Below, piece after piece: positions 11,043 through 42,180 of a stretch of 45,491 nucleotides of DNA. Each line of letters starts with the position of its first letter. The first letter of the stretch is position 1. A model generated the notes under the pieces. That model was given only the letters and a program-made list of their open reading frames with translations, did not search any database and was not told the DNA's origin. The stretch is from a virus: positions 1 through 45,491 of IMG/VR virus record IMGVR_UViG_3300032163_000030, one strand, 5' to 3'. The position numbers were made by a program, and so were the translations under genes.

Positions 11043-11630
11043 TTACTTCACCTCTTTAAAGGAAATTACATCAAAGGTACCGTATGGGCCTGGTTTCTTT
11101 GGTGACGATGGTCGCCAATCGCCCAGTCCTGCTACAATACCTGCGTTGGTTAAAATCTCTTTGATGTCATCTACCGACAAAACATTATTGGGTTTAGTTG
11201 TGATAGAAAAACTAACTTCATAACCTTCGGGAATTGCTGTTCTTATCCGATCCACTCTTGATCTTTGAACAACAACACCGCAAGTATGAAGCCAATCATT
11301 TTCCTTAATTCTATCAATCGTTACTGGTTTTCCTTCAACCAGTACCAAAGGTTCTTGGTTGGCAATGGCAAGAGATGTATAAATAACTCGGGTTATTGCA
11401 ACTTTCCTTATCTTTTTTCCTTTTGAGCCTTCAAACATACAAGCCATCAGGTTAGTCCAAGGCATAATGACCTCACCCTTATCATTAAGATAGGTGGTCT
11501 TTATCCATTCCTCGGAATAATCAGTTGTTTGACTTGTGATCTTTTTGGTTGAAGCGGCTGCTACGGGATATTTGTGAAGGAGTAATTGTGCTGAACCTTT
11601 TATTGTTACATCTATTTGCATTATTTTCAC
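11043..11630 (-). CDS. Conserved phage-type protein of unknown function
   Basis: A 195-residue soluble protein. It opens with a strand (MQIDVTIKGSAQLLLHKYP) and closes with GLGDWRPSSP then KPGPYGTFDVISF. I recognise this gene layout (N-terminal 'I-x-G-x-x-x-L-L-x-H-x-x-P' and C-terminal 'G-x-G-D-x-R-P-x-x-x-G-x-F') from unassigned phage proteins with a ferredoxin/RAMP-like look. Nucleic-acid binding is possible. AAGGAGGAGGTG precedes the ATG and a good promoter lies at 11654-11682. Early or regulatory expression is likely because it has its own promoter ahead of terL. Confidence 0.6.
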   Translation of the reverse strand: MKIMQIDVTIKGSAQLLLHKYPVAAASTKKITSQTTDYSEEWIKTTYLNDKGEVIMPWTNLMACMFEGSKGKKIRKVAITRVIYTSLAIANQEPLVLVEGKPVTIDRIKENDWLHTCGVVVQRSRVDRIRTAIPEGYEVSFSITTKPNNVLSVDDIKEILTNAGIVAGLGDWRPSSPKKPGPYGTFDVISFKEVK

Positions 11631-12094: not shown

Positions 12095-12535
12095 CTATAG
12101 GTTATCTTTGTTGGGGTTGTAGCCACTTGGAGTTATAACTATTCTTAGCTCACCCTTGCTTTGTACTGCTAGCATAGACTTAGGAGCGAATTGGTTGGGG
12201 AATATGCGTTCTAGAAGCCATTCAGAGTGTTTAGCGTCTGTTCTAGAGGCTTTATTAACATTCGTTAAATGTCTAGCTTTAAAAAATACCATTGCTTCTT
12301 CTATTTGGCTTACAAGGCTTTCATTACGATTTAAGAATCTATAAAAAGTTGGTTCTGAAATATAGACTAGACTACAAGTATCTTTGATCGTATGTCCTTG
12401 CTTTAAAAACTTTAATATCTTTTTAAACTTATATTGATTAATCTTATGTCTATTACCTTTTTCTTTTGCCCATAGTTGAACTTCAGCTAAGGTTTGAGGC
12501 TTTGTTTCTTCTGGTACTGTTAAATCGTTTGCCAT
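12095..12535 (-). CDS. terS: Terminase small subunit (probable)
   Basis: A 146-residue protein. A homeodomain-like helix-turn-helix occupies about residues 38-75 (ILKFLKQGHTIKDTCS followed by SEPTFYRFLNR), then a helical region with TDAKHSEWLLERIFPNQF, a pattern typical of small terminases where the HTH is followed by an oligomerisation helix. It would recognise the viral packaging site and recruit TerL. It is separated from terL by three genes and the pentanucleotide array. The start has no Shine-Dalgarno; a -10 box lies 8 bases upstream. A transcriptional regulator is the alternative. Confidence 0.7.
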   Translation of the reverse strand: MANDLTVPEETKPQTLAEVQLWAKEKGNRHKINQYKFKKILKFLKQGHTIKDTCSLVYISEPTFYRFLNRNESLVSQIEEAMVFFKARHLTNVNKASRTDAKHSEWLLERIFPNQFAPKSMLAVQSKGELRIVITPSGYNPNKDNL

Positions 12536-12778: not shown

Positions 12779-12805
12779 AACAAAAAGGAAGGGGGTGAGA
12801 AATAA

Positions 12806-13069
12806 ATGACAAAACAATTTACAATTTTAAAAGTTGGTTATACTCATGGAATTTATGGCTGCAGTGGCGAGTATTTTAATTGTATCTATACAACCAAAAA
12901 TGGTCTAAGCTCTTTTCCATTTAATGGAATGTATGGAGCAGAAGAAAGAGTTGCAGGAACTTTAAGAAGTCGAGGCTTTGAGGAAAAGTATACACCAACC
13001 GATTATGGAAAAATGAAGGCGAAAATCAATTTCAGGGCACTGACTGAATTTCAAAAAGCAAATGGATAA
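12806..13069 (+). CDS. Hypothetical early protein
   Basis: An 87-residue soluble protein with many aromatic and Gly residues in the first half and a Lys-rich C-terminus. AAGGAAGGGGGTGAG precedes the ATG. I do not recognise it. It lies between the consensus promoter and the terminator at 13161, so these two small genes form a separate early unit. Its last codons lie in a duplicated 20-base string (13054-13094). Confidence 0.55.
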   Translation: MTKQFTILKVGYTHGIYGCSGEYFNCIYTTKNGLSSFPFNGMYGAEERVAGTLRSRGFEEKYTPTDYGKMKAKINFRALTEFQKANG

Positions 13070-13600: not shown

Positions 13601-14803
13601 ATGTCTGCCATTTTAGTCGGTGCCACAGTTTATGACAATTTGGAAAAAGAGGCGGTGATTAAAGTTCTTGATGAGGGTTGGCTGGGAGTCGGTAAATATG
13701 CCAAAGAGTTTGAGGACAAGGTTGCCAAATATGTCGGTCATAAATACGGTATAGTTACCAACTCTGGATCATCTGCTCTACTTCTTGCTGTTCAATCCTT
13801 AGAATTACCCAAAGGTTCAAAAGTTATCGTTTGTGCTTGTGGTTTCCCAGCTACAGTTAGCCCGATTATCCATGCTGGACTTATTCCCATTTATGTTGAT
13901 GCTGAAATGACATCATATTCTATTGATCCCCATGAGATTGCCAAAGCGACCATGCAACATGATGCAAAAGCTGTCGTATTTGCCCACACAGTCGGCAATG
14001 TAGCCAACATGGACAAGGTGATGGCGATTGCTAAACTTCACAACCTCTTGGTCATAGAGGACATCTGCGACGCTCTAGGGGCTATGTGGGGCAAGAAACA
14101 AGTCGGATCATTCGGGGACATTTCCTGTGTTTCTTTTTATCCAAGCCATCATATTACAGCAGGGGGATTGGGAGGAATGATGCTAACCTCCAATGATGAC
14201 TATGCAACAAGGGCAATCTCACTTAGGGATTGGGGTAAAACTCACAATTCTCCAACCTATTACGATGCTTACACGACTGATGAAAGAAACTTTGTGATGG
14301 TAGATTCAATCTCTTATGACTACCGCTACACTTACTCCCATATTGGCTACAACCTCAAGCCAGCAGATTTAAATTGTGCCTTTGGAATTGCCCAGATGGA
14401 TAAACTGGATAGTTTTATCGAAAAGAGGAACGCCAACTACCAGAAACTATTTGATTTGTTCAACAGATCGCCCTATTTTGTCATGCCCAAACACCACAAA
14501 GAGGCAACCCCATCATGGTTTAACTATCCCGTGGTGGTCAAGGAAAACACAATCTTTACAAGAGATCAATTAGTCAAATACTTTGAAAAGCATGAGATAA
14601 GATGTCGTCTGTTCTTTGCAGGCAACATAACAAGACAACCAGCCTTTAAGGGAACAGGAATAATCTTAGGGGATTTGCCAGTATCTGACCTTTTAATGAA
14701 ACAGGCGTTTTTGATTGCTTGCCACCCAGCATTGACTGATGATAATATCCTCCATATTGGGAAAGTGTTAGACAATTTCTTGCATGAAAAAGATATTAAT
14801 TAG
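13601..14803 (+). CDS. PLP-dependent sugar 3-dehydratase, RfbH/ColD-like (DegT fold)
   Basis: A 400-residue DegT/DnrJ/EryC1-fold protein with NSGSSAL (54-60), EDICDALG (153-160) and SFYPSHHIT (178-186). Ordinary DegT aminotransferases have the PLP-binding Lys where this protein has His183. That exchange is the hallmark of the 3-dehydratases RfbH/E1 and ColD, which remove the C3 hydroxyl of a 4-keto-6-deoxy sugar nucleotide. The Cys cluster after SLRDWG that holds the 2Fe-2S centre in RfbH is absent, so it is more ColD-like in that respect. The ATG at 13601 fits the family start; an upstream in-frame ATG at 13508 falls inside the interleaved hairpins. It is the first gene of the sugar operon. 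Confidence 0.85.
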   Translation: MSAILVGATVYDNLEKEAVIKVLDEGWLGVGKYAKEFEDKVAKYVGHKYGIVTNSGSSALLLAVQSLELPKGSKVIVCACGFPATVSPIIHAGLIPIYVDAEMTSYSIDPHEIAKATMQHDAKAVVFAHTVGNVANMDKVMAIAKLHNLLVIEDICDALGAMWGKKQVGSFGDISCVSFYPSHHITAGGLGGMMLTSNDDYATRAISLRDWGKTHNSPTYYDAYTTDERNFVMVDSISYDYRYTYSHIGYNLKPADLNCAFGIAQMDKLDSFIEKRNANYQKLFDLFNRSPYFVMPKHHKEATPSWFNYPVVVKENTIFTRDQLVKYFEKHEIRCRLFFAGNITRQPAFKGTGIILGDLPVSDLLMKQAFLIACHPALTDDNILHIGKVLDNFLHEKDIN

Positions 14804-15575
14804 TTCGGGTTCAAGCTTTATAGCAAAAAACATTCGGGAACAATTAAAGTACAACTTTACCGCCCCCTTGCACCTTGGTCTTGATTTACTTGATCCCAAA
14901 GCGGTCAACAAGTTCTTTAAGAATAAATACTTTGATGTGGTGATCCATACCGCTGGGGTTGGTGGCAGGGGAAACAAGACTGACGGGGAGGATGTCTTTT
15001 ACCAGAATGTCTGTATGTTTGAGAACATAATCCAGAATGAGGAACACTTTGGCAAGCTGATTAATATGGGATCGGGTGCAGAATATGGCAAGCAGTTGCC
15101 GATTGTCAATGTCAAAGAAACTTTTGAAAGAATACCGACTGACTTTTACGGGATGGCAAAGCAGGTAATCGGCATGGTAATTGAAAGAACCAAAAAAGAT
15201 ATGGTCAACCTACGGACTATGGCGGCTTGGGGGAAATATGAAAAGCCTGATAGGTTTATCTCAACCATATTGTCTGATCCTGAAGAACTTTATATCCACG
15301 ATTGCCTATTTAATTACTGTTATGTTGATGACTTGGTAAAGATCATTGACTGGTTTATTAACAACGATTCGGAATACCGCACCTACAATATCGGTGGTAC
15401 AAAGATCAGACTGACTGATATTGCAAAGAAACTAAAGAAACCATATATTTTGGGTGATCCAGGGAATGAATACACCTGTGATGATACACGACTACGGGAG
15501 GAATTAAAGTTTAAGTTTTCAAACTTTGATAAATGTCTGAAAAAATACCAGTCGCAATTCTTGGTACAGGCTTGA
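14784..15575 (+). CDS. NAD(P)-dependent sugar epimerase/reductase (extended SDR)
   Basis: A 263-residue SDR. The Gly-rich nucleotide motif is degenerate (SSGSSFIAKNI, residues 7-17). The catalytic set is Ser97 in NMGSG, Tyr122 and Lys126 in YGMAK. YVDDLVK and YNIGG later in the chain are typical of nucleotide-sugar SDRs. The expected reaction is reduction or epimerisation of a 4-keto sugar nucleotide, in this setting perhaps reduction of the branched product. It overlaps the dehydratase by 20 nt and the next gene by 43 nt. Confidence 0.8.
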   Translation: MKKILISSGSSFIAKNIREQLKYNFTAPLHLGLDLLDPKAVNKFFKNKYFDVVIHTAGVGGRGNKTDGEDVFYQNVCMFENIIQNEEHFGKLINMGSGAEYGKQLPIVNVKETFERIPTDFYGMAKQVIGMVIERTKKDMVNLRTMAAWGKYEKPDRFISTILSDPEELYIHDCLFNYCYVDDLVKIIDWFINNDSEYRTYNIGGTKIRLTDIAKKLKKPYILGDPGNEYTCDDTRLREELKFKFSNFDKCLKKYQSQFLVQA

Positions 15576-16363
15576 TAGGAACTGATCTTTTGATGAAGGT
15601 CATCCGATCTCCCCTCTTGGAGTGTGTGATGTTTGCTGGACAACGCAAAGACTCACCAGGAATAGAAAAAGCCAAAGAGTTTGGAATACCAACCAGCGAC
15701 AAATCAATTGATGCAATCTTAAAATCAAATGCCAGAATCGTTTTCTCAGCCACCACAGCCAAAGCCCACCAGGAACATTCACCCAAACTAAAGGATAGGT
15801 TTGTTCTAGACCTGACACCATCCCATATCGGCAAGTTGTGTGTGCCAGAGATCAACTTAGAGGAATGTCTTTCCGAGCAGGAACTATCCCTTGGTTCTTG
15901 CGGAGTCCAGGCAACAATTCCTTTAATCAATGCCTTGGTCAATCCGTCTTATGTCGAGGTGGTTTCAACTATTGCTTCCAAATCAGCAGGACTAGGGACA
16001 AGAAATAACATTGATGAGTACACCAGAATCACCTCTGATGCCATCACTGAACTGTGCCAGGTCAAATCTAAAGCCATTATCATCCTCAACCCAGCAGAAC
16101 CACCGATTGTGATGCACAACACGATCTACGCTGTTGTAGAGCGGAAACCAAATCTTAAAAAAGTGGTGGCAAGAATGAAAGAATATGTGCCAGGATACAG
16201 GTTAATCTTAAAGCCAGTCTTTGAAACTAACAGGCTGACTTTCATTAACGAGGTTACGGGATCGGGGGATTACTTGCCACCCTATGCAGGAAATCTTGAT
16301 ATGATTAACTGTATAGCCCTTTATATTGCGGAGTCTTATGCTAAGAAAAATCAAAAAGACTGA
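15533..16363 (+). CDS. Acylating acetaldehyde dehydrogenase (MhpF/DmpF-like)
   Basis: A 276-residue protein with N-terminal NAD motif VAILGTGLIG (7-16), catalytic Cys123 in GSCGVQATIP, TRNNIDEYT and the C-terminal GSGDYLPPYAGN, all characteristic of acetaldehyde:NAD+ oxidoreductase (CoA-acylating). It is slightly shorter than the usual 295-310 residues. In known pathways it forms a channelling complex with 4-hydroxy-2-oxovalerate aldolase, whose homologue is two genes downstream. In a sugar operon it probably runs from acetyl-CoA to acetaldehyde, supplying the aldolase; that direction is inferred. Confidence 0.85.
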   Translation: MSEKIPVAILGTGLIGTDLLMKVIRSPLLECVMFAGQRKDSPGIEKAKEFGIPTSDKSIDAILKSNARIVFSATTAKAHQEHSPKLKDRFVLDLTPSHIGKLCVPEINLEECLSEQELSLGSCGVQATIPLINALVNPSYVEVVSTIASKSAGLGTRNNIDEYTRITSDAITELCQVKSKAIIILNPAEPPIVMHNTIYAVVERKPNLKKVVARMKEYVPGYRLILKPVFETNRLTFINEVTGSGDYLPPYAGNLDMINCIALYIAESYAKKNQKD

Positions 16364-16676
16364 CAAGATACTATGCGTTTGTGAAGGTGGCAATTCAAGA
16401 TCGGTTGCCTTGGCTTGGCTATTCAAAAAGAGCTTTGGAATGGAAGCAATATCGGTAGGGTTAAGGGAATCAAGCAAAGAAACTTTGACAATGCTGGGAA
16501 AGTGGGCAGACCATATAATCCTGACTGACAGAAACCTGAAAGACAGGATACCGAAAGAATGGAAACCAAAGTTGAGAGTCTACCACTCTGGGCCAGATAT
16601 TTATTTTAAAGGATTTGCGGAAACCTTAATCAATAAGTTCTTACAATACTTGGAGGATGATGGAATCAAGAATTGA
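16338..16676 (+). CDS. Small C-x5-R phosphatase-like protein
   Basis: A 112-residue protein. CEGGNSRS near residue 17 matches the C-x5-R-S/T phosphate-binding loop of low-molecular-weight or dual-specificity phosphatases. The general acid Asp is not certain (candidates in ILTDRN). The ATG at 16338 follows GGAG; an earlier in-frame TTG at 16326 is unlikely. It might dephosphorylate a sugar phosphate intermediate, filling the role GmhB plays in heptose pathways, or act on a regulatory protein. It overlaps both neighbours by about 20-26 nt. Confidence 0.6.
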   Translation: MLRKIKKTDKILCVCEGGNSRSVALAWLFKKSFGMEAISVGLRESSKETLTMLGKWADHIILTDRNLKDRIPKEWKPKLRVYHSGPDIYFKGFAETLINKFLQYLEDDGIKN

Positions 16677-17673
16677 GATATTTGACAGCAGTTTAAGGGA
16701 TGGTAGTCATGCGGTTAGACACCAACTGACCAAAAGCCAGATTTCAAAGTATGCAAAGTTGGCAGAGGAGGCTAAGATACCTGTGATCTTTGTCGGTCAT
16801 GGTGATGGGATCGGTGCTTCATCAATCCACCTTGATTTCTCCTTATTGACTGATAGGCAAATGCTGGTGGCGGCTAAAAAAGAATTGAAGAATACTAAAC
16901 TTGGCACTTTCCTAATCCCAGGATTCGGCACAATTAAGAACGATCTTGAACCGATCATTGACCTGATTGATTATCTTGAGATTGGCTGCCACTGCACCGA
17001 AGCAAACATCACCAGACAGCACATGGAATATGCCAAAAGCAAGGGTTTGAAAGTCTATGGTTGCTTGATGATGAGTCACATGATAGAGAAAGAGATGCTA
17101 TTGGAACAAGCAAAACTAATGCAAGGCTATGGTGCAGATGGGGTACTTTTAATGGATTCGGCTGGGGCTTCTTTACCAGAAGATGTTATGTGGAAAGTAG
17201 ATTGTCTAGTTGACGGTTTGGATATTCCAGTTGGTTATCACCCACATAATAATTTAGGATTGGCAGTCGCCAATGCAATTGGTGCCATAGAGGCAGGGGC
17301 AACAATTATTGATGGTACAACCAGAGGGTTTGGGGCTGGGGCTGGTAATTGTCCTTTGGAAATCCTGATAGCGGTCATGGATAAGATGGGATATGAAACT
17401 GGCGTTGACTTTTACAAGCTCTTAGATGCCTCTGAATTTATTGACTCGTTCGCCCCACCACAGGTCATCTCACCAATCAGTATCGTCTCTGGTTTGGCTG
17501 GTGTTTTCTCAGGATTTGCCCCTCTTGCAAAACGGGCTGCTAAGCGATTTAATGTTGATGTGAGGGATATATTTGTTGAACTTGGTAAAAGAAAAGTGGT
17601 AGCAGGACAGGAAGATCAGATCATTGAGGTAGCAAGCAAACTAAAAACAAGCAGGATCGAGGCTTTATCATGA
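16657..17673 (+). CDS. 4-hydroxy-2-oxovalerate aldolase-like enzyme (HMGL family)
   Basis: A 338-residue TIM-barrel protein. The first strand motif FDSSLRDGSHAVRHQ carries the metal Asp15, Arg14 and His18; GHGDGIGASS follows; the second metal motif is HPHNN (His195, His197); GFGAGAGNCPLE closes the active site. These are the MhpE/DmpG signatures, and length is close to the family's 340. The reaction is reversible aldol joining of pyruvate and an aldehyde. With the acetaldehyde dehydrogenase it would make 4-hydroxy-2-oxovalerate. The start is ATG 16657 or 16660; GGAGG lies immediately before. Confidence 0.88.
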   Translation: MMESRIEIFDSSLRDGSHAVRHQLTKSQISKYAKLAEEAKIPVIFVGHGDGIGASSIHLDFSLLTDRQMLVAAKKELKNTKLGTFLIPGFGTIKNDLEPIIDLIDYLEIGCHCTEANITRQHMEYAKSKGLKVYGCLMMSHMIEKEMLLEQAKLMQGYGADGVLLMDSAGASLPEDVMWKVDCLVDGLDIPVGYHPHNNLGLAVANAIGAIEAGATIIDGTTRGFGAGAGNCPLEILIAVMDKMGYETGVDFYKLLDASEFIDSFAPPQVISPISIVSGLAGVFSGFAPLAKRAAKRFNVDVRDIFVELGKRKVVAGQEDQIIEVASKLKTSRIEALS

Positions 17674-18152
17674 GGCCATCACTTGATCTATTAAAGGACA
17701 GAAAGAAACTTGTCGGGGCAGAGATAGGAGTTGCTGACGGGGGTAATGCCGAAAGGATATTAAAGAATCTTGATATTAAAAAGTTATATCTGGTTGATAT
17801 TTGGAAGAAATACAAAGAAGAAGAAAGCATCCTTGATTCAACTGCTAGTGAAGCAAACGCCAAAGAAAGGTTGAAAGACTACAAGCAAGTGGTTTTTATC
17901 AAAAGCCCTTCAGTAAAAGCAGCCAAAAAAATAACAAATAAAACTCTTGATTTTGTCTATATTGATGCCAACCACGAATACAAATTTGTCAAGAAAGACA
18001 TCGAGGCTTGGTTACCAAAAGTTAAAGTAGGGGGAATGATAGCAGGGCATGATATTGACAGACCAGGAGTCAAACAGGCAGTTAAAGAAATACTTAATCC
18101 AACTGAACTTATGGGGGTGGGGCCAAGTGACTGGTACAAATATATCGAATAA
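17670..18152 (+). CDS. SAM-dependent methyltransferase (class I, Methyltransf_24-like)
   Basis: A 160-residue Rossmann methyltransferase. Motif I is AEIGVADGGNAERIL (17-31), motif II includes LYLVDIW, motif IV is LDFVYIDANHEY, and GGMIAGHD follows. The His/Asp pattern matches the small sugar or O-methyltransferases found in glycan operons. It would cap a hydroxyl of the sugar product. It overlaps the aldolase by ATGA and the thiamine enzyme by about 26 nt. Confidence 0.8.
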   Translation: MRPSLDLLKDRKKLVGAEIGVADGGNAERILKNLDIKKLYLVDIWKKYKEEESILDSTASEANAKERLKDYKQVVFIKSPSVKAAKKITNKTLDFVYIDANHEYKFVKKDIEAWLPKVKVGGMIAGHDIDRPGVKQAVKEILNPTELMGVGPSDWYKYIE

Positions 18153-18654
18153 GATAATGAAATTCTTGGAAGATAAGGGCGTGAAGCATATCTTCACCGT
18201 ACCAGGTGGTCATGCGATGTTTTTAAATGATGCCCTTTTTAGTTCAAAGATCAAACCGATTTTCTGCCATCACGAACAGGCAGCTGGTATGGCAGCAGAG
18301 GCTTACGGCAGGATTGCAGGACTTGGAGTTTGTATGGTCACAGCAGGGCCAGGAGTAATCAATGTCTTAAATGGTGTGGTTGGTGCGTGGTGTGATTCCT
18401 CTCCTATGATTATCATTTCAGGAACAAACTATTCCAATGAAGTTGCTTACCTGAAGAAGAATAAAATGAGGCAAGTAGGGTTGCAGGGAGTCAATACTGA
18501 GGCGATTGTAACCCCCATCACCAAATACTTTGTTACATTGACTGGCAAGGACTTAAAAAATGTGTTGTCTAAGGCCCTTAAAGAGGCCACCACGGGTAGG
18601 AAAGGGCCATGTTGGATAGAATGTCCGCTTGATGTCCAATCGAAGGAAACATGA
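18127..18654 (+). CDS. Thiamine-diphosphate enzyme, N-terminal (Pyr) half
   Basis: A 175-residue equivalent of the pyrimidine-binding domain of acetolactate-synthase-like enzymes: FTVPGGHAMFLNDAL, then catalytic Glu50 in HHEQAAGMAAEAYGR, then TAGPGVINVLNG. It stops after CWIECPLDVQ, the normal end of this domain. The remaining domains are encoded 430 bases further on, after an HNH endonuclease gene. The GTG at 18127 is chosen because it restores the family's usual N-terminus; an ATG at 18157 is the alternative. Two separate chains probably combine to form the enzyme. Confidence 0.82.
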   Translation: MTGTNISNKIMKFLEDKGVKHIFTVPGGHAMFLNDALFSSKIKPIFCHHEQAAGMAAEAYGRIAGLGVCMVTAGPGVINVLNGVVGAWCDSSPMIIISGTNYSNEVAYLKKNKMRQVGLQGVNTEAIVTPITKYFVTLTGKDLKNVLSKALKEATTGRKGPCWIECPLDVQSKET

Positions 18655-19106
18655 CATCTAATAACCCATTTCCAAAAGGACATAAAATAAATTTAGGCAG
18701 GAAACAATCAGAAGAAACAAGACGCAAAATAAGTCTTGGACTTATGGGTAGGCAACTTTCAGCTGAATCAAGAGCCAAGATAGGTATGGCACATCTTGGA
18801 AATAAATGGGGAGTAGGGCATCACCCATCAGAAGAATTGAAAAAGAGATGGAGTGAACAAAGGTTGGGTAATAAAAGTTCCAGCTGGAAAGGCGATAAGG
18901 TTGGATATTCTCAATTACACAAATGGATTCGTAAGTATAAAGGGCGACCTTTATGGTGTAGTTTTTGTGGATCAACTATGAAAATCCAATGGGCTAATAT
19001 CAACCACGATTATAAGCGTGACCTTGACGGTTGGATGGCATTATGTATCAGTTGCCATATTAAATATGATGAAAGGGAAAGAAATGGCAAAGGTCAATTC
19101 GTCTAG
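18651..19106 (+). CDS. HNH homing endonuclease with NUMOD3 repeats
   Basis: A 151-residue protein. Residues 8-70 carry two or three NUMOD3-type DNA-contact repeats (GRKQSEETRRKIS, GRQLSAESRAKIG, HHPSEELKKRW). The HNH core is at about 100-142 with paired Cys (WCSFCG and CISCH) and INHDYKRDLDGW. It overlaps the upstream half-gene by ATGA and the downstream half-gene by 23 nt. It is a free-standing mobile endonuclease lodged inside the thiamine-enzyme gene. Similar genes lie at 40760 and 43403. Confidence 0.88.
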   Translation: MTSNNPFPKGHKINLGRKQSEETRRKISLGLMGRQLSAESRAKIGMAHLGNKWGVGHHPSEELKKRWSEQRLGNKSSSWKGDKVGYSQLHKWIRKYKGRPLWCSFCGSTMKIQWANINHDYKRDLDGWMALCISCHIKYDERERNGKGQFV

Positions 19107-20097
19107 ATATTCAAAACCTCTCTTAATAATCGGTAATGGAGCCAGAGGCTTAGACTGGACTAAGTTCGGTCTGCCTATCATTACCACCCGATTGGGAATT
19201 GATTTGATTGAATCAGACAATCCTTTATTTATTGGTAGATACGGGTTATTCACCGATAAGCCATCCTATCTTGCTGTTCAAAATGCTGATATTGTCTTTT
19301 GTGTGGGGGCAAGACTTGATCCTGGCTTTGCTGGCTATAACAATGAGGACTTTGCCCCCAATGCTAAAAGAGTGATTGTTGATATTGATAAGAAAGAATT
19401 GGCAAAGATTCGGGCTGATGTTAAGTACAATATGTCAGCCAAAGATTTCTACAAGCAATGGCGAGTGGAGATCAGAAACAACGAGTGGCTTGCCCAGTGC
19501 CAACAATGGAAAAGGGATTATCCTTTGGAACTGACAGGATCGTACAAAGCAATCAGGGAAATATCAGACCGAGCCAAACCTGATGACATGATTGTAGTTG
19601 ATACCTCCTCCTCATTTCATATCGCCTCACAAATCTGGCAGATCAAGAAAGGCCAAAGATACATCACCACGGGAGGAATCTCAACGATGGGCTATTGGCC
19701 CGCAGCAATGGGAGTACAGTTGGCTTCAGGGAGGAGAGTAATTTGCATCACGGGTGATGGTTGCCTACAAATGAACATTCAGGAGTTGGCAACAGTCGTC
19801 AAAAACAAACTAAAAATAAAGATTTTCGTGCTTAATAATGACGGCTATCTCCTGATAAGACATACCCAAAAGAAATACTTTCATCATGTAATGGGTGAAT
19901 CACCCAAGACTGGCTTGGGATTCCCTAATTTCTCAACAATAGCCTTGGCTTATGGGATCAGATATACAGATGATATTAAAGATGCCATGAGGGGCAATGA
20001 TCCCGTGCTTTGTGAACTGTTCACACCTAAATGGGAGCCATTACAAGGTCGCATAGATGAAATCGCCAGCCAACGAGATAGTAACCAGACTTACTAA
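19084..20097 (+). CDS. Thiamine-diphosphate enzyme, central and C-terminal (PP) domains
   Basis: A 337-residue protein. The central Rossmann-like domain (about 10-125) begins KPLLIIGNGARG. The PP domain holds the cofactor motif GDGCLQMNIQE (224-234) ending in LNND (250-253), the classical GDG-x26-NN signature. Together with the 18127 half this gives about 510 residues, near the usual 540-570 of acetolactate-synthase-like enzymes. The ATG at 19084 has AAGGG upstream; the open frame back to 19018 only reads through the endonuclease gene. The likely role is decarboxylating a 2-oxo acid and passing the acyl group to a keto-sugar. Confidence 0.85.
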   Translation: MAKVNSSRYSKPLLIIGNGARGLDWTKFGLPIITTRLGIDLIESDNPLFIGRYGLFTDKPSYLAVQNADIVFCVGARLDPGFAGYNNEDFAPNAKRVIVDIDKKELAKIRADVKYNMSAKDFYKQWRVEIRNNEWLAQCQQWKRDYPLELTGSYKAIREISDRAKPDDMIVVDTSSSFHIASQIWQIKKGQRYITTGGISTMGYWPAAMGVQLASGRRVICITGDGCLQMNIQELATVVKNKLKIKIFVLNNDGYLLIRHTQKKYFHHVMGESPKTGLGFPNFSTIALAYGIRYTDDIKDAMRGNDPVLCELFTPKWEPLQGRIDEIASQRDSNQTY

Positions 20098-20485
20098 ATG
20101 TTTTGAAAGAGGCAACCGAGCTTTTATTTGCGGTAACGGGGGATCAGCCCAGCAAGCCAACCACTTTGCCGCAGAGTTAGTCCACGAAGGATACCCCGCT
20201 ATTTCACTTTGTTCTGACATATCAGTCATTACCGCCATTGCCAACGATGAGGGATATGAGAATATCTTTCGGGATCAGCTTATGGCCTTGGCTGAAGAAG
20301 GCGACATTTTAATCTGCCTGTCAACTTCAGGAAAATCCAAGAATATCCTTAAAACATTCTATTGGGCTAAGTGTCACGACTTAGAGATAATAGATTTTCC
20401 AAGAAAGGGAGATACGGCCCACTGTCAAGAATATCATTTGCATTTGATCCATAAAATCTGGAGGGATTTAAAACGAGAGGCCTAA
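20057..20485 (+). CDS. SIS-domain sugar-phosphate isomerase, GmhA-like
   Basis: A 142-residue protein with CGNGGSAQQANHFAAEL (25-41), then TAIANDEGYENIF and CLSTSGKSKNIL. This is the pattern of sedoheptulose-7-phosphate isomerase, though the chain is shorter than the usual 190 residues: the N-terminal helix is trimmed. It would start an ADP- or GDP-heptose-like route. It overlaps the thiamine-enzyme gene by 41 nt and the next gene by 13 nt. Confidence 0.8.
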   Translation: MKSPANEIVTRLTKCFERGNRAFICGNGGSAQQANHFAAELVHEGYPAISLCSDISVITAIANDEGYENIFRDQLMALAEEGDILICLSTSGKSKNILKTFYWAKCHDLEIIDFPRKGDTAHCQEYHLHLIHKIWRDLKREA

Positions 20486-21168
20486 TTTTAGCAGGTGGTT
20501 TGGGAACAAGGCTCTGGCCTATCACCAAAGACATTCCCAAGCCGATGGTCAAGGTAGCGGGCAAACCCTGTCTTGAATGGATCATCGGGAATCTTAACCG
20601 ACATGGGATCACAGAGATAATGATTTATGTCCACTATAAGGCTGATGTTATCAAGGATTATTTTAAAGATCAGGTGAAGTATGACTATACTGCCGAGCTT
20701 ACTGGTACAGCCGAAACAGTTTGCAGAAATGCTGATTGGCTGACTGAAAAGGAAGATGATTTCTTGGTAGTCAATGGGGATACTATTACCAACTGTGACA
20801 TCACCGAGTTGATTGCCGAACATAAGAAAGGGAAAGCCCAAGTAACTGCGTTCTTCAGCAAGGATAAGGTCTTGGGTATTTTTTTAAAAAACGGTGGCAC
20901 ATTGATAATCAACAAAGAAGCACTTGAATCTATCAACCAGCATTATCTCTTAGAGGAAATCTTTAATAAGCGTAACATGACTGAGAGAATAGCTCAGCCT
21001 TCAGTCTATCGGGTAGCCAGGGATGAGTGGATTTACTTTGATATTGGAACCCAATTGGAGATTGACCACTTCGAAGCATTTGTTGAGGAACAACAGCGAT
21101 GGGTGAATAGTTTGGTTCCATTCGATATAATACAGGGTAAAGATGTCGCCAATAATCAGGTGCCCTAA
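20473..21168 (+). CDS. Sugar-1-phosphate nucleotidyltransferase, HddC/RmlA-like
   Basis: The first residues are RGLILAGGLGTRLWP, followed by KPMVKVAGKP and FLVVNGDTI: the nucleotidyltransferase signature for NTP and metal binding. The family start falls exactly at an ACG codon (20473) that sits 7 bases after GGAGGG; no ATG, GTG or TTG in frame lies before the motif (an upstream stop is at 20452). The next candidate, TTG at 20500, would delete the catalytic GG loop. ACG initiation, or an ATG-to-ACG variant, is therefore likely. Together with GmhA it suggests a heptose-type nucleotide sugar (HddC uses GTP). Confidence 0.82.
   Translation, partial: TRGLILAGGLGTRLWPITKDIPKPMVKVAGKPCLEWIIGNLNRHGITEIMIYVHYKADVIKDYFKDQVKYDYTAELTGTAETVCRNADWLTEKEDDFLVVNGDTITNCDITELIAEHKKGKAQVTAFFSKDKVLGIFLKNGGTLIINKEALESINQHYLLEEIFNKRNMTERIAQPSVYRVARDEWIYFDIGTQLEIDHFEAFVEEQQRWVNSLVPFDIIQGKDVANNQVP
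21126..21131 (+). promoter_or_regulatory. -10 box ahead of the 21143 gene
   Basis: TATAAT lies 11 bases before the ATG at 21143, with no clear -35 and no proper Shine-Dalgarno spacing. It is another near-leaderless arrangement and could start a new unit after the sugar operon. Confidence 0.45.
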
Positions 21169-23579: not shown

Positions 23580-24485
23580 ATGTGTCAAGGTTGTGCTATA
23601 TTCGCAAATAATAAGAAGGCTCTTTATGCCAAAAAGACTGTATCCCATTCAGATGGGGCAAAAGAGTTGAGGATTAATGAGGACAAATACAGGAAGTTTG
23701 AGTACCTTTGGTGGAAGAAGGAACTAAATCAAGTTCATTATGATGAAGTTGCAAAGAATATTCTTGCCAAAGTAGATATTGAAAAAGCAACTAAATTATC
23801 TTCCGAATTAGTAAAGAAAAATCTTAAATCTCAAGCCCAACTTGCCAAATGGCTTAAAGGGGTTCCCGAAGAATGGGACAAATTATTAGACCCGAAGTTT
23901 AAGTCTTTGGCTATGAAGGTTTCTCCTAAACTATTAACCTATCAGGACAAGATTAAAAGTTTTAAGTATTCCGATAAGAAATTTAATCCCTATCAAGCAA
24001 CCAAATTGCCGCCAGTTGAGGAAATAAAGAAAGCAATTCCTGTAAAAGTCAGGAATCAGGTCTGGAGTCAGGTCTGGAGTCAGGTCAGGAGTCAGGTCTG
24101 GAGTCAGGTCTGGAGTCAGGTCGGGAGTCAGGTCTGGAGTCAGGTCGGGGGTCAGGTCTGGAGTCAGGTCGGGGGTCAGGTCAGGAGTCAGGTCGGGGAT
24201 CAGGTCTGGAGTCAGGTCTGGGGTCAGGTCGGGGGTCAGGTCGGGGGTCAGGTCTGGGGTCAGGTCAGGAGTCAGGTCGGGGGTCAGGTCGGGGGTCAGG
24301 TCTGGAGTCAGGTCTGGGCAGTTTCCTATTGGGGAATAAAAACCCAATTAGGACTATCAATAAAGCATTGGTTCTTTGATTTCCTAAAGTTGGGAATAAT
24401 GATTGTATTTGTTAAAGGAAAAGCGAAGGTATTTGGAAAGAAAGGTAAGTTTTTAGGTGAGTATGATATTAAAGAGTTTAAATAA
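23580..24485 (+). CDS. QV-tetrapeptide repeat protein
   Basis: A 301-residue protein. Residues 1-155 are charged and helical with an N-terminal CQGC. Residues about 160-246 are 22 consecutive tetrapeptides x-x-Q-V in which the variable pair is WS, GG, RS, GS, WG, GD or RN. The C-terminal 55 residues are aromatic and basic. Each tetrapeptide is one 12-base DNA unit. The alternation of Gln and Val suggests a narrow beta-solenoid or amyloid-like stack. GGAGTAAAT precedes the ATG. I do not know its function; surface or storage roles are speculation. Confidence 0.65.
24057..24314 (+). repeat. 12-base in-frame tandem repeat (about 21.5 units)
   Basis: Units of CAGGTC plus six variable bases (TGGAGT, GGGGGT, AGGAGT, GGGAGT, TGGGGT, GGGGAT) run without interruption. 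Because the unit is 12 bases, gain or loss of units keeps the frame. Units vary mainly at the first and fourth variable bases. Confidence 0.9.
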
Positions 24486-39570: not shown

Positions 39571-40776
39571 TTAAGACAAAGGCAATAGATCACTTTGCAA
39601 CTGTTCAATTAAAGGTAGCCATTTCTCTTTAAAAATTGTATCAATGTTGAAATTGTCCTCAACATTCTTTCTGCAATCCTTGGCAACCTGTTCAGGGTTC
39701 TCTTTGAGCATCTTATAAACCTTCTCCATCGCCATCCAGATTGACTTGGATTCTGGCACTTCCCAGAAAGATAAGGCTGATGTCCACCTTCTTGAGGCTA
39801 CTTGGGCGATCTCCCCAGTCTTGCCTGGAATGATAAGTTCTGGCATTGAGTGGCAGTTGTTGACCACTACTGGCTTACCACAAGCTTGGGATTCAACAAT
39901 CGTCAATCCGAACCCTTCGGTCTGGGAAGGGTGAAGCAAGGCATCAAAAGCGTTATATTGAAATTCAATATCTTCTCTTGTCGCAAAAATACTGGCAAAA
40001 AGCTGATCCAAGAAGAAAATCTTATCTCCTATTCCTAAGTATTGGGAATACTCACGAATCGGGAAACTGCCTGGTGAAATCTGTTGGGTGTGAACAAACA
40101 ATCTTGATTCGGGATGGGCTTTAACAAAAAAGTTAAAAGCCTCCAAAGCCTCTTGGAAACTCTTTCTTGGGGGATTTTCTTTATTGGCGGCAATCATTCC
40201 CCATAAGAAACAATCTTCTGGAAGCCCCAACTTTCTCCTTGCCTCCATCTTGTCTTTGGGTTGTAGAAGTTTTAAATCAACTCCCTCATAAATCATTTCC
40301 GAATTAAAGCCATGTTTGATAAGTTCATCATGACCAAACTTGGAAAAGGTAATGATCTTGTCAGCCAAAGGCAAACATCTCATCACAGCAGGGGCGACAG
40401 GAGTGGAATCAATCGGCATATAGGGAATCCACTTGCAACCGATATTGTGCAGACTTTGAATATACCCAGGATCAATCACCCAAACATCAATCATTGAAAT
40501 TGCCAGTTTTGCCCCGAAATTCCTTGCCCCATAAAACATCGTATCGGCCCCATGAGGATCATTGACTGATGGATACATCCGCAAAGTTCCTTCATCCATT
40601 CGGTAATCTATCCAGTGACCGCTAAGCCCAGCTTTTGAGGCTTGGGCTACTTGGAATCCTTCTTTTAAGAGGCGTTTGATTAAAAATTCAAGTTCTACGG
40701 CATATCCCGATTGAGTTTTCTAAGTCCAAACGGCATCTCCGTGAAAAATGATTTTTAAATCACGCCGCTTGGTCAT
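39571..40776 (-). CDS. GT4-type glycosyltransferase with an in-frame amber codon at position 19
   Basis: The 402-codon frame from ATG 40776 (GGAGGTG seven bases upstream) starts KRRDLKIIFHGDAVWT and after a TAG continues SGYAVELEFLIKRLLKEGF, exactly as a GT-B glycosyltransferase N-terminus should. The C-terminal domain holds the donor-site motif HPSQTEGFGLTIVESQACG with the E-x7-E pattern. The TAG (40722-40720) would stop synthesis unless suppressed; a shorter product could restart at 40599. Other genes end normally in TAG, so general recoding is unlikely. Substrate unknown. Confidence 0.75.
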
Positions 40777-41311
40777 AGGACATCACCTCCTGAACTACTT
40801 TAGGCTTATTGCCATAAGTAGGTGTCTGTTTGTGGCACTCGACACAAAGTGTTCTACCATTTGAAACTTTAAATCTTAGTTCTGGATAAATACTCCAAGG
40901 CTGTATGTGGTCAGCATTTAAAGTTATTTCAACTCCTCTAACTTTTCTCCTTCCACAGATTTGGCAAGTAAAGTTATCTTTTTTATAAACTGCTATTCGC
41001 CATTCTTTATACTTTTGACTATCGTGTCTATCATTTATTAATGAAATCCCTCCTTGCCAATTCCAATGATTTTTACCTCTAGTTCTTTTACTTGCTTCTA
41101 AATGCCATTTTAAGGAATGTTTAAAAGTTCCTTTTTTATTCTTATTCCAAGGAATCCTTCCCCGCATCTTATTTTTTGTTTCTTCCGAAAGAGACCTACC
41201 TTTTAAAACTAAACTTATCTTCTTTTTAGTTTCACTAGAACGCTTTTTGCCAAGCCAATAGTTATATGATTTATGGCCTTTTACAAACCATCCTCTATTA
41301 TTTCTCAACAT
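40760..41311 (-). CDS. HNH homing endonuclease with NUMOD3 repeats
   Basis: A 183-residue protein with NUMOD3-type repeats (GKKRSSETKKKIS, GRSLSEETKNKM) and an HNH core with CQICG, NADHIQPW and CVECHKQ. It sits between the two glycosyltransferase genes, overlapping the first by 14 nt and the second by 17 nt, and supplies the latter's ribosome site inside its own 3' end. Confidence 0.87.
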   Translation of the reverse strand: MLRNNRGWFVKGHKSYNYWLGKKRSSETKKKISLVLKGRSLSEETKNKMRGRIPWNKNKKGTFKHSLKWHLEASKRTRGKNHWNWQGGISLINDRHDSQKYKEWRIAVYKKDNFTCQICGRRKVRGVEITLNADHIQPWSIYPELRFKVSNGRTLCVECHKQTPTYGNKPKVVQEVMSYDQAA

Positions 41312-42116
41312 TTATTAGGGATTTTATATACTCACGAACCTCTGGCTGAAAAATTGTTTCTAAGTGATCGAATTTACCAGGTTGGGCACCGCCAGCAAAA
41401 TGGTAAGCAATGATCTCTTTGTCGTAATCTCCTGGCCAGATGTCGTGGTCTGCACCAGATTTAGCGGGAAGGATTAACTTTTTATCTTTTAAAATTATTT
41501 GCGAAGCATATCCCTTAACTATTAACCCGTGCCATTTATTATTCGGTTCCCTGTCTAGAAACCTGACATTATAATCTCCATAAAAGACCAGGATATTTAA
41601 GAAATCCTGCTCAAAGAACTGGTAATGTTGCCTCGCTGGTGTGCAAAGTCTAAGCCAATGTTTGGCAAATCTTTCTGATTTAACAACCACAAACCCGCAG
41701 TTGACATAATCAATCGGAGCAACATCCCAGACTGAAACATTCTTGCCCATCAATTGAACTTGGGAAACAAGTTCCCTGGGTGAAGCATTTTGGGTTACTG
41801 CAACATCAAAATCCCCTTCCCAAGTATGGGAAATATCCCCAGTGATTATCATGTCCGAATCCAACCTTGCCACACATTCATATTCCTCCATCAACTCATT
41901 GATAAAGATAGGAGTCATAAAACGCATCTTAAACTCACTAGGATTGATTGTGGGGAAACCAAGTCTTTCTGCATCCTTGGCAGTATAGAGTTTAATATCG
42001 GCTTTCTTTTCAATATCGGGATTGGTCTTTTTAAGGGAGGAAATCATCTTGAGGGAATAATCGTAGTAAATATCTCCTATTCCCGTAACCAAGATTGCAA
42101 GAGGTTTTTTAGCCAT
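41298..42116 (-). CDS. GT-A glycosyltransferase (GT8-like)
   Basis: A 272-residue protein. The start MAKKPLAILVTGIGDIYYDYS is followed by a Rossmann-like region and the metal motif D-x-D in ARLDSDMII (about residue 95). Later VNCGFVVV and the C-terminal HFAGGAQPGKF fit GT8-like enzymes. The ATG at 42116 has AAAGG upstream; the frame extends to 42158 through a hairpin and is less likely. Target unknown: because it lies among capsid and tail genes, virion protein is a candidate. Confidence 0.75.
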   Translation of the reverse strand: MAKKPLAILVTGIGDIYYDYSLKMISSLKKTNPDIEKKADIKLYTAKDAERLGFPTINPSEFKMRFMTPIFINELMEEYECVARLDSDMIITGDISHTWEGDFDVAVTQNASPRELVSQVQLMGKNVSVWDVAPIDYVNCGFVVVKSERFAKHWLRLCTPARQHYQFFEQDFLNILVFYGDYNVRFLDREPNNKWHGLIVKGYASQIILKDKKLILPAKSGADHDIWPGDYDKEIIAYHFAGGAQPGKFDHLETIFQPEVREYIKSLINVEK

Positions 42117-42125
42117 TACGCCTTT

Positions 42126-42145
42126 GGGGTAGCAAACGCTACCCC
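42126..42145 (-). promoter_or_regulatory. GC-rich hairpin before the GT-A gene
   Basis: A perfect eight-base stem GGGGTAGC/GCTACCCC with a four-base loop, five bases before the AAAGG of the glycosyltransferase. There is no U-tract. Likely an mRNA stability or translation-control hairpin. Confidence 0.6.
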
Positions 42146-42180
42146 TCAAGCGTAACAAATCATCTTAACAAAAGTCAAGA

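Follow-up and report, generated by a model that had tools for sequence, protein, structure and literature searches.

Positions 13601 to 21168 of the virus record IMGVR_UViG_3300032163_000030 hold a phage gene cluster which, judging from the enzymes it is predicted to encode, probably yields an erwiniose-type sugar nucleotide that is 4-C-branched and 3-deoxy. The stretch analysed (the window) is the whole IMG/VR record of 45,491 bases. Besides a GT4 glycosyltransferase, its gene products include a large terminase, a major head protein, an SU10-like adaptor and a weakly matched portal, and on the strength of these terminase, head protein and adaptor/portal matches the record is that of a tailed phage (Caudoviricetes). 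The cluster consists of 11 plus-strand genes, each overlapping or touching the next, in the following order:

13601..14803, plus strand: RfbH-like pyridoxal phosphate (PLP) C3-dehydratase; first gene, start at 13601; catalytic His183 present
14784..15575, plus strand: short protein of the short-chain dehydrogenase/reductase (SDR) type; YxxxK at 122; PF01370, 67 bits
15533..16363, plus strand: acetylating acetaldehyde dehydrogenase, MhpF/DmpF type; Cys123 present; TIGR03215
16326..16676, plus strand: low-molecular-weight (LMW) phosphatase/ArsC-like protein of 116 residues; CEGGNSR at residue 19; ATG possibly at 16338
16657..17673, plus strand: 4-hydroxy-2-oxovalerate aldolase, MhpE/DmpG type; TIGR03217; DmpG_comm domain
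17670..18152, plus strand: class I methyltransferase; Methyltransf_24
18127..18654, plus strand: N part of a predicted YerE-like thiamine diphosphate (ThDP) carboligase (PYR domain, catalytic Glu50); PF02776; probable GTG start at 18127
18651..19106, plus strand: NUMOD3/HNH-type homing endonuclease gene between the ThDP halves; PF07460, 30 bits against a cut-off of 20.4
19084..20097, plus strand: C part of the predicted YerE-like ThDP carboligase (central and PP domains); PF00205 and PF02775; GDG at 224, NN at 251; start probably at 19084
20057..20485, plus strand: SIS-domain, GmhA-like sugar-phosphate isomerase, from a domain match
20473..21168, plus strand: sugar-1-phosphate nucleotidyltransferase (NTP transferase), with a predicted start

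Every gene that an earlier sequence-only reading had named in this interval was located there by family models, but the NUMOD3 gene and the small phosphatase-like gene had been overlooked. The cluster is not a product of chance: NCBIfam E-values for its proteins go down to 1e-122, and many genomes carry the gene set.

In the proposed pathway, whose reaction directions and substrates are predictions, the acetaldehyde dehydrogenase would convert acetyl-CoA to acetaldehyde, which the aldolase would join to pyruvate to give 4-hydroxy-2-oxopentanoate (4-hydroxy-2-oxovalerate). From a host-derived 4-keto sugar nucleotide, RfbH would take off the C3 oxygen. The YerE/ErwE-like ThDP enzyme, in its two pieces, would decarboxylate 4-hydroxy-2-oxopentanoate and add the resulting C4 acyl unit at the C4 ketone, and the newly formed carbonyl would be reduced by the SDR, which probably has a YerF-like role. 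Finally, GT4 and GT8 glycosyltransferases encoded elsewhere in the window might attach the sugar to a virion protein or a host surface glycan.

Among solved structures, the ThDP enzyme is matched best by 8rph (JanthE; E 5e-71), with acetolactate synthases next (8e-59). JanthE, a ketone carboligase of the YerE-like type, takes 4-hydroxy-2-oxovalerate as a donor. The catalytic motifs are kept, with Glu50 in the N part and GDG224 and NN251 in the C part, and RfbH in the same operon provides the C3-dehydratase linkage by which YerE-like carboligases are recognized. Aldehyde-ketone carboligation on a keto sugar is the predicted reaction. According to a 2025 review, ErwE makes erwiniose by joining hydroxylated 2-oxo acids to CDP-4-keto-3,6-dideoxyglucose, its preferred donors being, for example, 4-hydroxy-2-oxobutanoate, -pentanoate and -hexanoate (PMC12247030). 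The JanthE match and this donor class support the suggestion of the sequence-only reading that the aldolase pair may supply 4-hydroxy-2-oxovalerate as a C4 donor, and C4-donor chemistry of the ErwE kind appears the most economical interpretation here. A branch longer than that of yersiniose thus holds up as an interpretation, but such a length is not new, as ErwE already uses donors of this sort. Two further ThDP enzymes (L011 and L012) have a CDG motif (NCDGG) as in JanthE and adjoin the aldolase pair; this gene context suggests that JanthE-type enzymes use aldolase-made donors.

The products of the donor-making genes exceed the cut-offs of their families. The aldolase scores 369 bits against TIGR03217 (cut-off 286) and retains the DmpG_comm (communication) domain, while the dehydrogenase scores 302 bits against TIGR03215 (cut-off 282). 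The alignment shows no variation at aldolase residues R14, D15, H18, H195 and H197 or at C123 of the dehydrogenase.

The RfbH protein matches PF01041 (DegT) with 296 bits and the NCBIfam RfbH model with 388 bits, below its equivalog cut-off of 423, and at the active site has His where the PLP Lys would otherwise stand (SHHIT, aligned to E1 H220). At the positions of E1 C193, C251, C253 and C261, which we take to be the iron-sulphur (Fe-S) cluster ligands of the Yersinia enzyme, the window has C, H, S and T, so that three of the four cysteines are gone. All four are kept in 46/47 cellular and 24/24 further viral homologues. Cellular homologues that lack them (L021, and the Roizmanbacteria-order genomes G078 and G080) group with moderate support (87) beside the pair formed by the window and its closest viral contig, the sister phage L010 (IMGVR 3300022222_000004); in G080 the cysteine-lacking gene shares a stretch with the dehydrogenase, aldolase and ThDP genes. 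This grouping indicates that a cluster-free RfbH subfamily exists. The protein is not nearest to ColD (156 bits, versus 297 bits for E1), and a ColD-like mechanism without a cluster is a guess with which the ligand loss is compatible. The RfbH of a Candidatus Roizmanbacteria contig (L022:15210-17903) appears to carry an intein beside the active-site motif.

The remaining cluster genes are less readily placed. In the 116-residue protein, a C-x5-R-S loop is present and a single-sequence model (mean pLDDT 71) fits arsenate reductase/LMW-phosphatase folds best; no counterpart was found in the relatives compared. The methyltransferase is absent from the module of the sister phage. The SIS protein reaches 108.5 bits against the GmhA equivalog, below the cut-off of 209.45. 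No ATG, GTG or TTG lies upstream of the conserved LILAGG motif of the nucleotidyltransferase. A candidate ACG start at 20473 stands 8 bases 3' of GGAGG, and the 3' end of the SIS gene (20460-20485) contains T TTA AAA, placed in frame for a -1 shift that would fuse the two proteins; initiation at the ACG or a frameshift fusion are both possible.

Several points weigh against the proposed pathway. The record encodes no full-length 4,6-dehydratase, a family to which the SDR gives a weak and partial match, and hence the 4-keto acceptor must come from the host. Without the Fe-S ligands of E1, the window's RfbH must work by a different mechanism from that enzyme. The aldolase could take another aldehyde. 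Finally, an HddA-like kinase, which the window lacks, lies between the SIS and nucleotidyltransferase genes of the sister phage, which hints that these two proteins may serve a heptose route.

One alternative is that the branched sugar has another donor (a different 4-hydroxy-2-oxo acid, or plain pyruvate) or another core, namely a heptose activated by the SIS protein, perhaps a kinase, and the nucleotidyltransferase. We consider this rather unlikely. The consecutive SIS, kinase and nucleotidyltransferase genes of the sister phage speak for it, as do the same trio alongside a split transketolase in phage G088, other viral modules that join RfbH and a ThDP enzyme to PanB and HldE-type heptose genes, and the acceptance of several hydroxylated donors by ErwE. 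Nevertheless, the dehydrogenase and aldolase pass the cut-offs for acetaldehyde dehydrogenase and 4-hydroxy-2-oxovalerate aldolase, no kinase is present in the window, and cellular clusters with the module also hold genes for glucose-1-phosphate cytidylyltransferase and CDP-/dTDP-glucose 4,6-dehydratase-like proteins. The erwiniose-type pathway is further favoured by the relatives of the window phage, which keep ThDP C-C ligase cassettes (split transketolase and SDR) at the same locus.

The break between the two ThDP pieces falls in the linker (about 35 residues in intact homologues) that joins the PYR to the central domain. The enzyme is a single chain in 99 of the 105 loci examined. Together with the endonuclease-type gene between the halves and the missing usual start codon of the nucleotidyltransferase, this would fit a ThDP gene broken by a homing endonuclease in an operon that is decaying cargo, an explanation we regard as very improbable. 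In the sister phage the gene is split at the identical point, with a gap of about 1.5 kb that contains two different genes, one of them a 25% homologue of the window gene at 11043-11630. In the Candidatus Roizmanbacteria genome contig L022 the split is again at the identical point with zero insert, the halves overlapping in different frames. Endonuclease insertion as the cause of the split is rejected on these grounds. The three split enzymes form one clade in the tree (100/100), with four intact enzymes from the same class of bacteria outside it, and the simplest history would be one split event that predates the inserts. The L022 split may be an assembly frame error, but it would then be one that mimics the phage split point.

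Nor do the halves look like remnants. Their catalytic residues are kept, and they are 65% and 69% identical between the window and the sister phage, a rate of evolution like that of the virion genes (large terminase 65%, major head protein 65%); RfbH is at 70%, and the SDR, dehydrogenase and SIS protein are lower (48-55%). Within the halves, identity is about 81% at codon position 2 and 37-38% at position 3. The far stronger conservation at position 2 shows purifying selection on each piece. The evidence is consistent with a two-subunit YerE-like carboligase, predicted to assemble from two polypeptides. As for the inserted gene, a homologue lies elsewhere in phage G088. An Rfam scan of the window returned no RNA family, group I introns included, and hence the insert looks like a free-standing gene and not an intron. 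In the sister phage, G-rich GGTAAGGTGAGGTGCGG-type repeats (L010:12165-12300 and 12780-13000) lie around one of the genes in the gap between the ThDP halves. A second, distinct ThDP split or frameshift, with an ATGA overlap between the central and PP domains, was seen on two separate contigs (L014:4759-6506 and L015:6337-8084).

Because the aldolase family takes its name from aromatic degradation, gene neighbourhoods were compared. When the aldolase and RfbH were each used as a single-protein query against viral contigs, neither gave a match; an alignment query then did, and the aldolase profile recovered 11 viral loci. RfbH is adjacent in 10/11 of these, as are the ThDP enzyme and the dehydrogenase, and the loci that break the linkage (L020 and L018) are truncated where their contigs end. 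Among 84,980 cellular species genomes, the 80 closest aldolase loci were examined within the fetched flank, and they hold the dehydrogenase in 79, a related ThDP enzyme in 65 and RfbH in 50. They belong to Bacteroidota, Bacillota, Pseudomonadota, Verrucomicrobiota, Patescibacteria, some archaea and others; as the query alignment was made from sugar-linked aldolases, these counts hold for the closest relatives and not for all DmpG. Three contrast DmpG loci of catabolic or other context, on plasmid or chromosome (L002, L004 and L006), have neither RfbH nor such a ThDP enzyme (0/3). In the isolate-phage collection, the aldolase was found only in AFYI01000006, a Salmonella chromosomal contig. That entry is filed as phage though it carries rRNA and ribosomal protein genes, and is a false phage match.

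Sugar genes thus surround the pair in the window and its relatives, where an aromatic-degradation neighbourhood was not found. The sequence-only reading had said that homologues from aromatic catabolism lacking sugar-cluster relatives would count against it; the opposite is seen. A catabolic or energy auxiliary set, in which MhpEF would break 4-hydroxy-2-oxovalerate into pyruvate and acetyl-CoA with no tie to sugars, can draw on the family names and on plasmid homologues in degradation clusters, but it is exceedingly unlikely. The window shows no gene for an upstream degradation step, the linkage to RfbH and the YerE-like enzyme is constant across phyla, and aromatic catabolism as the role of the operon is rejected on these neighbourhoods.

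Three minus-strand genes outside the cluster matter for its setting:

12095..12535, minus strand: small terminase-like gene bordering the cassette locus; role from its position beside the large terminase
39571..40599, minus strand: GT4 glycosyltransferase in the virion-gene region; present in 4/4 related phages examined
41298..42158, minus strand: GT8-type glycosyltransferase, LgtC fold; present in 4/4 related phages examined

On the 49 kb contig of the sister phage, the large terminase, portal, major head protein, GT4 and GT8 are 62-69% identical to those of the window, and the module sits in the equivalent place. Among 83 Roizmanbacteria-order genomes, G062 gave the sole head-protein match (49% identity), and a wider sample of 374 genomes of the class gave none beyond it. 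The 487 kb G062 contig carries uvrA-, uvrB- and uvrC-like and elongation-factor-family genes followed by a syntenic phage region; its location on a chromosomal contig supports a host in the Roizmanbacteria order. A temperate lifestyle was considered for the window phage; no Phage_integrase domain was found in the window or three relatives, other kinds of integrase not having been searched for.

The relatives share the window's virion genes in order but carry differing cassettes beside the terminase: an SDR, split transketolase and methyltransferase in the prophage-like region of G062, an SDR and split transketolase in phage G085, and SIS, HddA-like kinase, nucleotidyltransferase, SDR and split transketolase genes in phage G088. 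Hence, the terminase-side site is a place of exchange for sugar/ThDP C-C ligase cassettes. As related viruses carry different versions of the gene set at the same spot, the set probably decides the sugar coat of the virus or its host. GT4 and the GT8-type enzyme stand among the virion genes in every relative examined (four related phages), and the GT8 model matches LgtC, with a chlorovirus capsid glycosyltransferase lower in the list. Tentatively, and with somewhat less than even confidence, we propose that Candidatus Roizmanbacteria phages swap whole ThDP sugar-branching cassettes beside the terminase, each writing its own branched sugar through GT4/GT8 on the virion or host surface, and that host and phage have in common a new architecture, the two-subunit YerE-like carboligase. 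The cassettes would be either a C4-branch set (two-subunit YerE-like enzyme and cluster-free RfbH) or a split transketolase and SDR with or without heptose activation.

Other RfbH modules and repeats were noted in passing. In 24 presumably marine IMG/VR contigs (L135-L158; for example L137:8181-13934), RfbH occurs with an intact YerE-like ThDP enzyme. PanB (ketopantoate hydroxymethyltransferase) lies directly 3' of the ThDP gene in at least 21 of the 24, followed by an SDR, and in most also by split genes for the heptose enzyme HldE. PanB could play a parallel part in donor synthesis, making another 4-hydroxy-2-oxo acid. At 23580-24485 the window encodes a protein with a long tandem run of WSQVGSQV-type repeats; near the L010 module lie other repeat proteins (DPARESYFAIT, KAHQAWEKA).

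If the erwiniose-type pathway is true, it would be, as far as our searches reach, the first phage pathway to cover, for a branched sugar, the precursor step on the keto sugar as well as synthesis of the acyl donor; no relevant phage branched-sugar pathway was found in openly accessible papers, to which the search was confined, so priority is unproven. The phages concerned infect ultra-small bacteria whose surface biology is almost unexplored, and the terminase-side swap offers a concrete hypothesis for how they change glycans. A naturally split YerE-like carboligase is also provided, from a class sought for chiral tertiary alcohols, and both it and the cluster-free RfbH are directly testable.

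Comparison with known systems places these features. The window pair resembles DmpG/DmpF and MhpE/MhpF as an aldolase with an acetylating dehydrogenase, in its communication domain and in its catalytic residues, but lies outside any aromatic-degradation context and presumably runs in the synthetic direction. In phage Aeh1, nrdA is in pieces through insertion of the endonuclease gene mobE; the window likewise has an endonuclease gene between enzyme halves, but its split predates the inserted gene and recurs in an insert-free cellular genome. YerE, which makes yersiniose A in Yersinia pseudotuberculosis, is one chain and is described with pyruvate, for a C2 branch. The likeness lies in RfbH-type C3 deoxygenation, ThDP carboligation at C4 and SDR reduction, whereas the window has a two-piece enzyme and a proposed C4 donor. 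JanthE (Janthinobacterium sp. HH01, 8rph), the nearest solved structure, has a CDG motif in one chain, where the window has GDG in two.

Phages of the same bacterial group, Patescibacteria, carry nucleotide-sugar genes, of which galE, rmlB, rmlD, manA, gmd and rmd are named in the main text of PMC12911398; a text search of that main text finds no aldolase, DegT or ThDP sugar enzyme. The closest parallel in chemistry is ErwE/erwiniose of Pectobacterium atrosepticum (PMC12247030), with a YerE-like ThDP enzyme, a hydroxylated 2-oxo acid donor and a 4-keto-3,6-dideoxy sugar acceptor, the last presumed for the phage. Compared with ErwE as described, the window system is phage-encoded, has its enzyme in two polypeptides and its donor genes in the operon, and uses an RfbH without the Fe-S cysteines. 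Since erwiniose synthesis has been described in bacteria, the chemistry itself is not new; what is new is that the system sits in a phage, has donor synthesis within the operon, a two-piece enzyme and a cluster-free RfbH, and lies at an exchange site.

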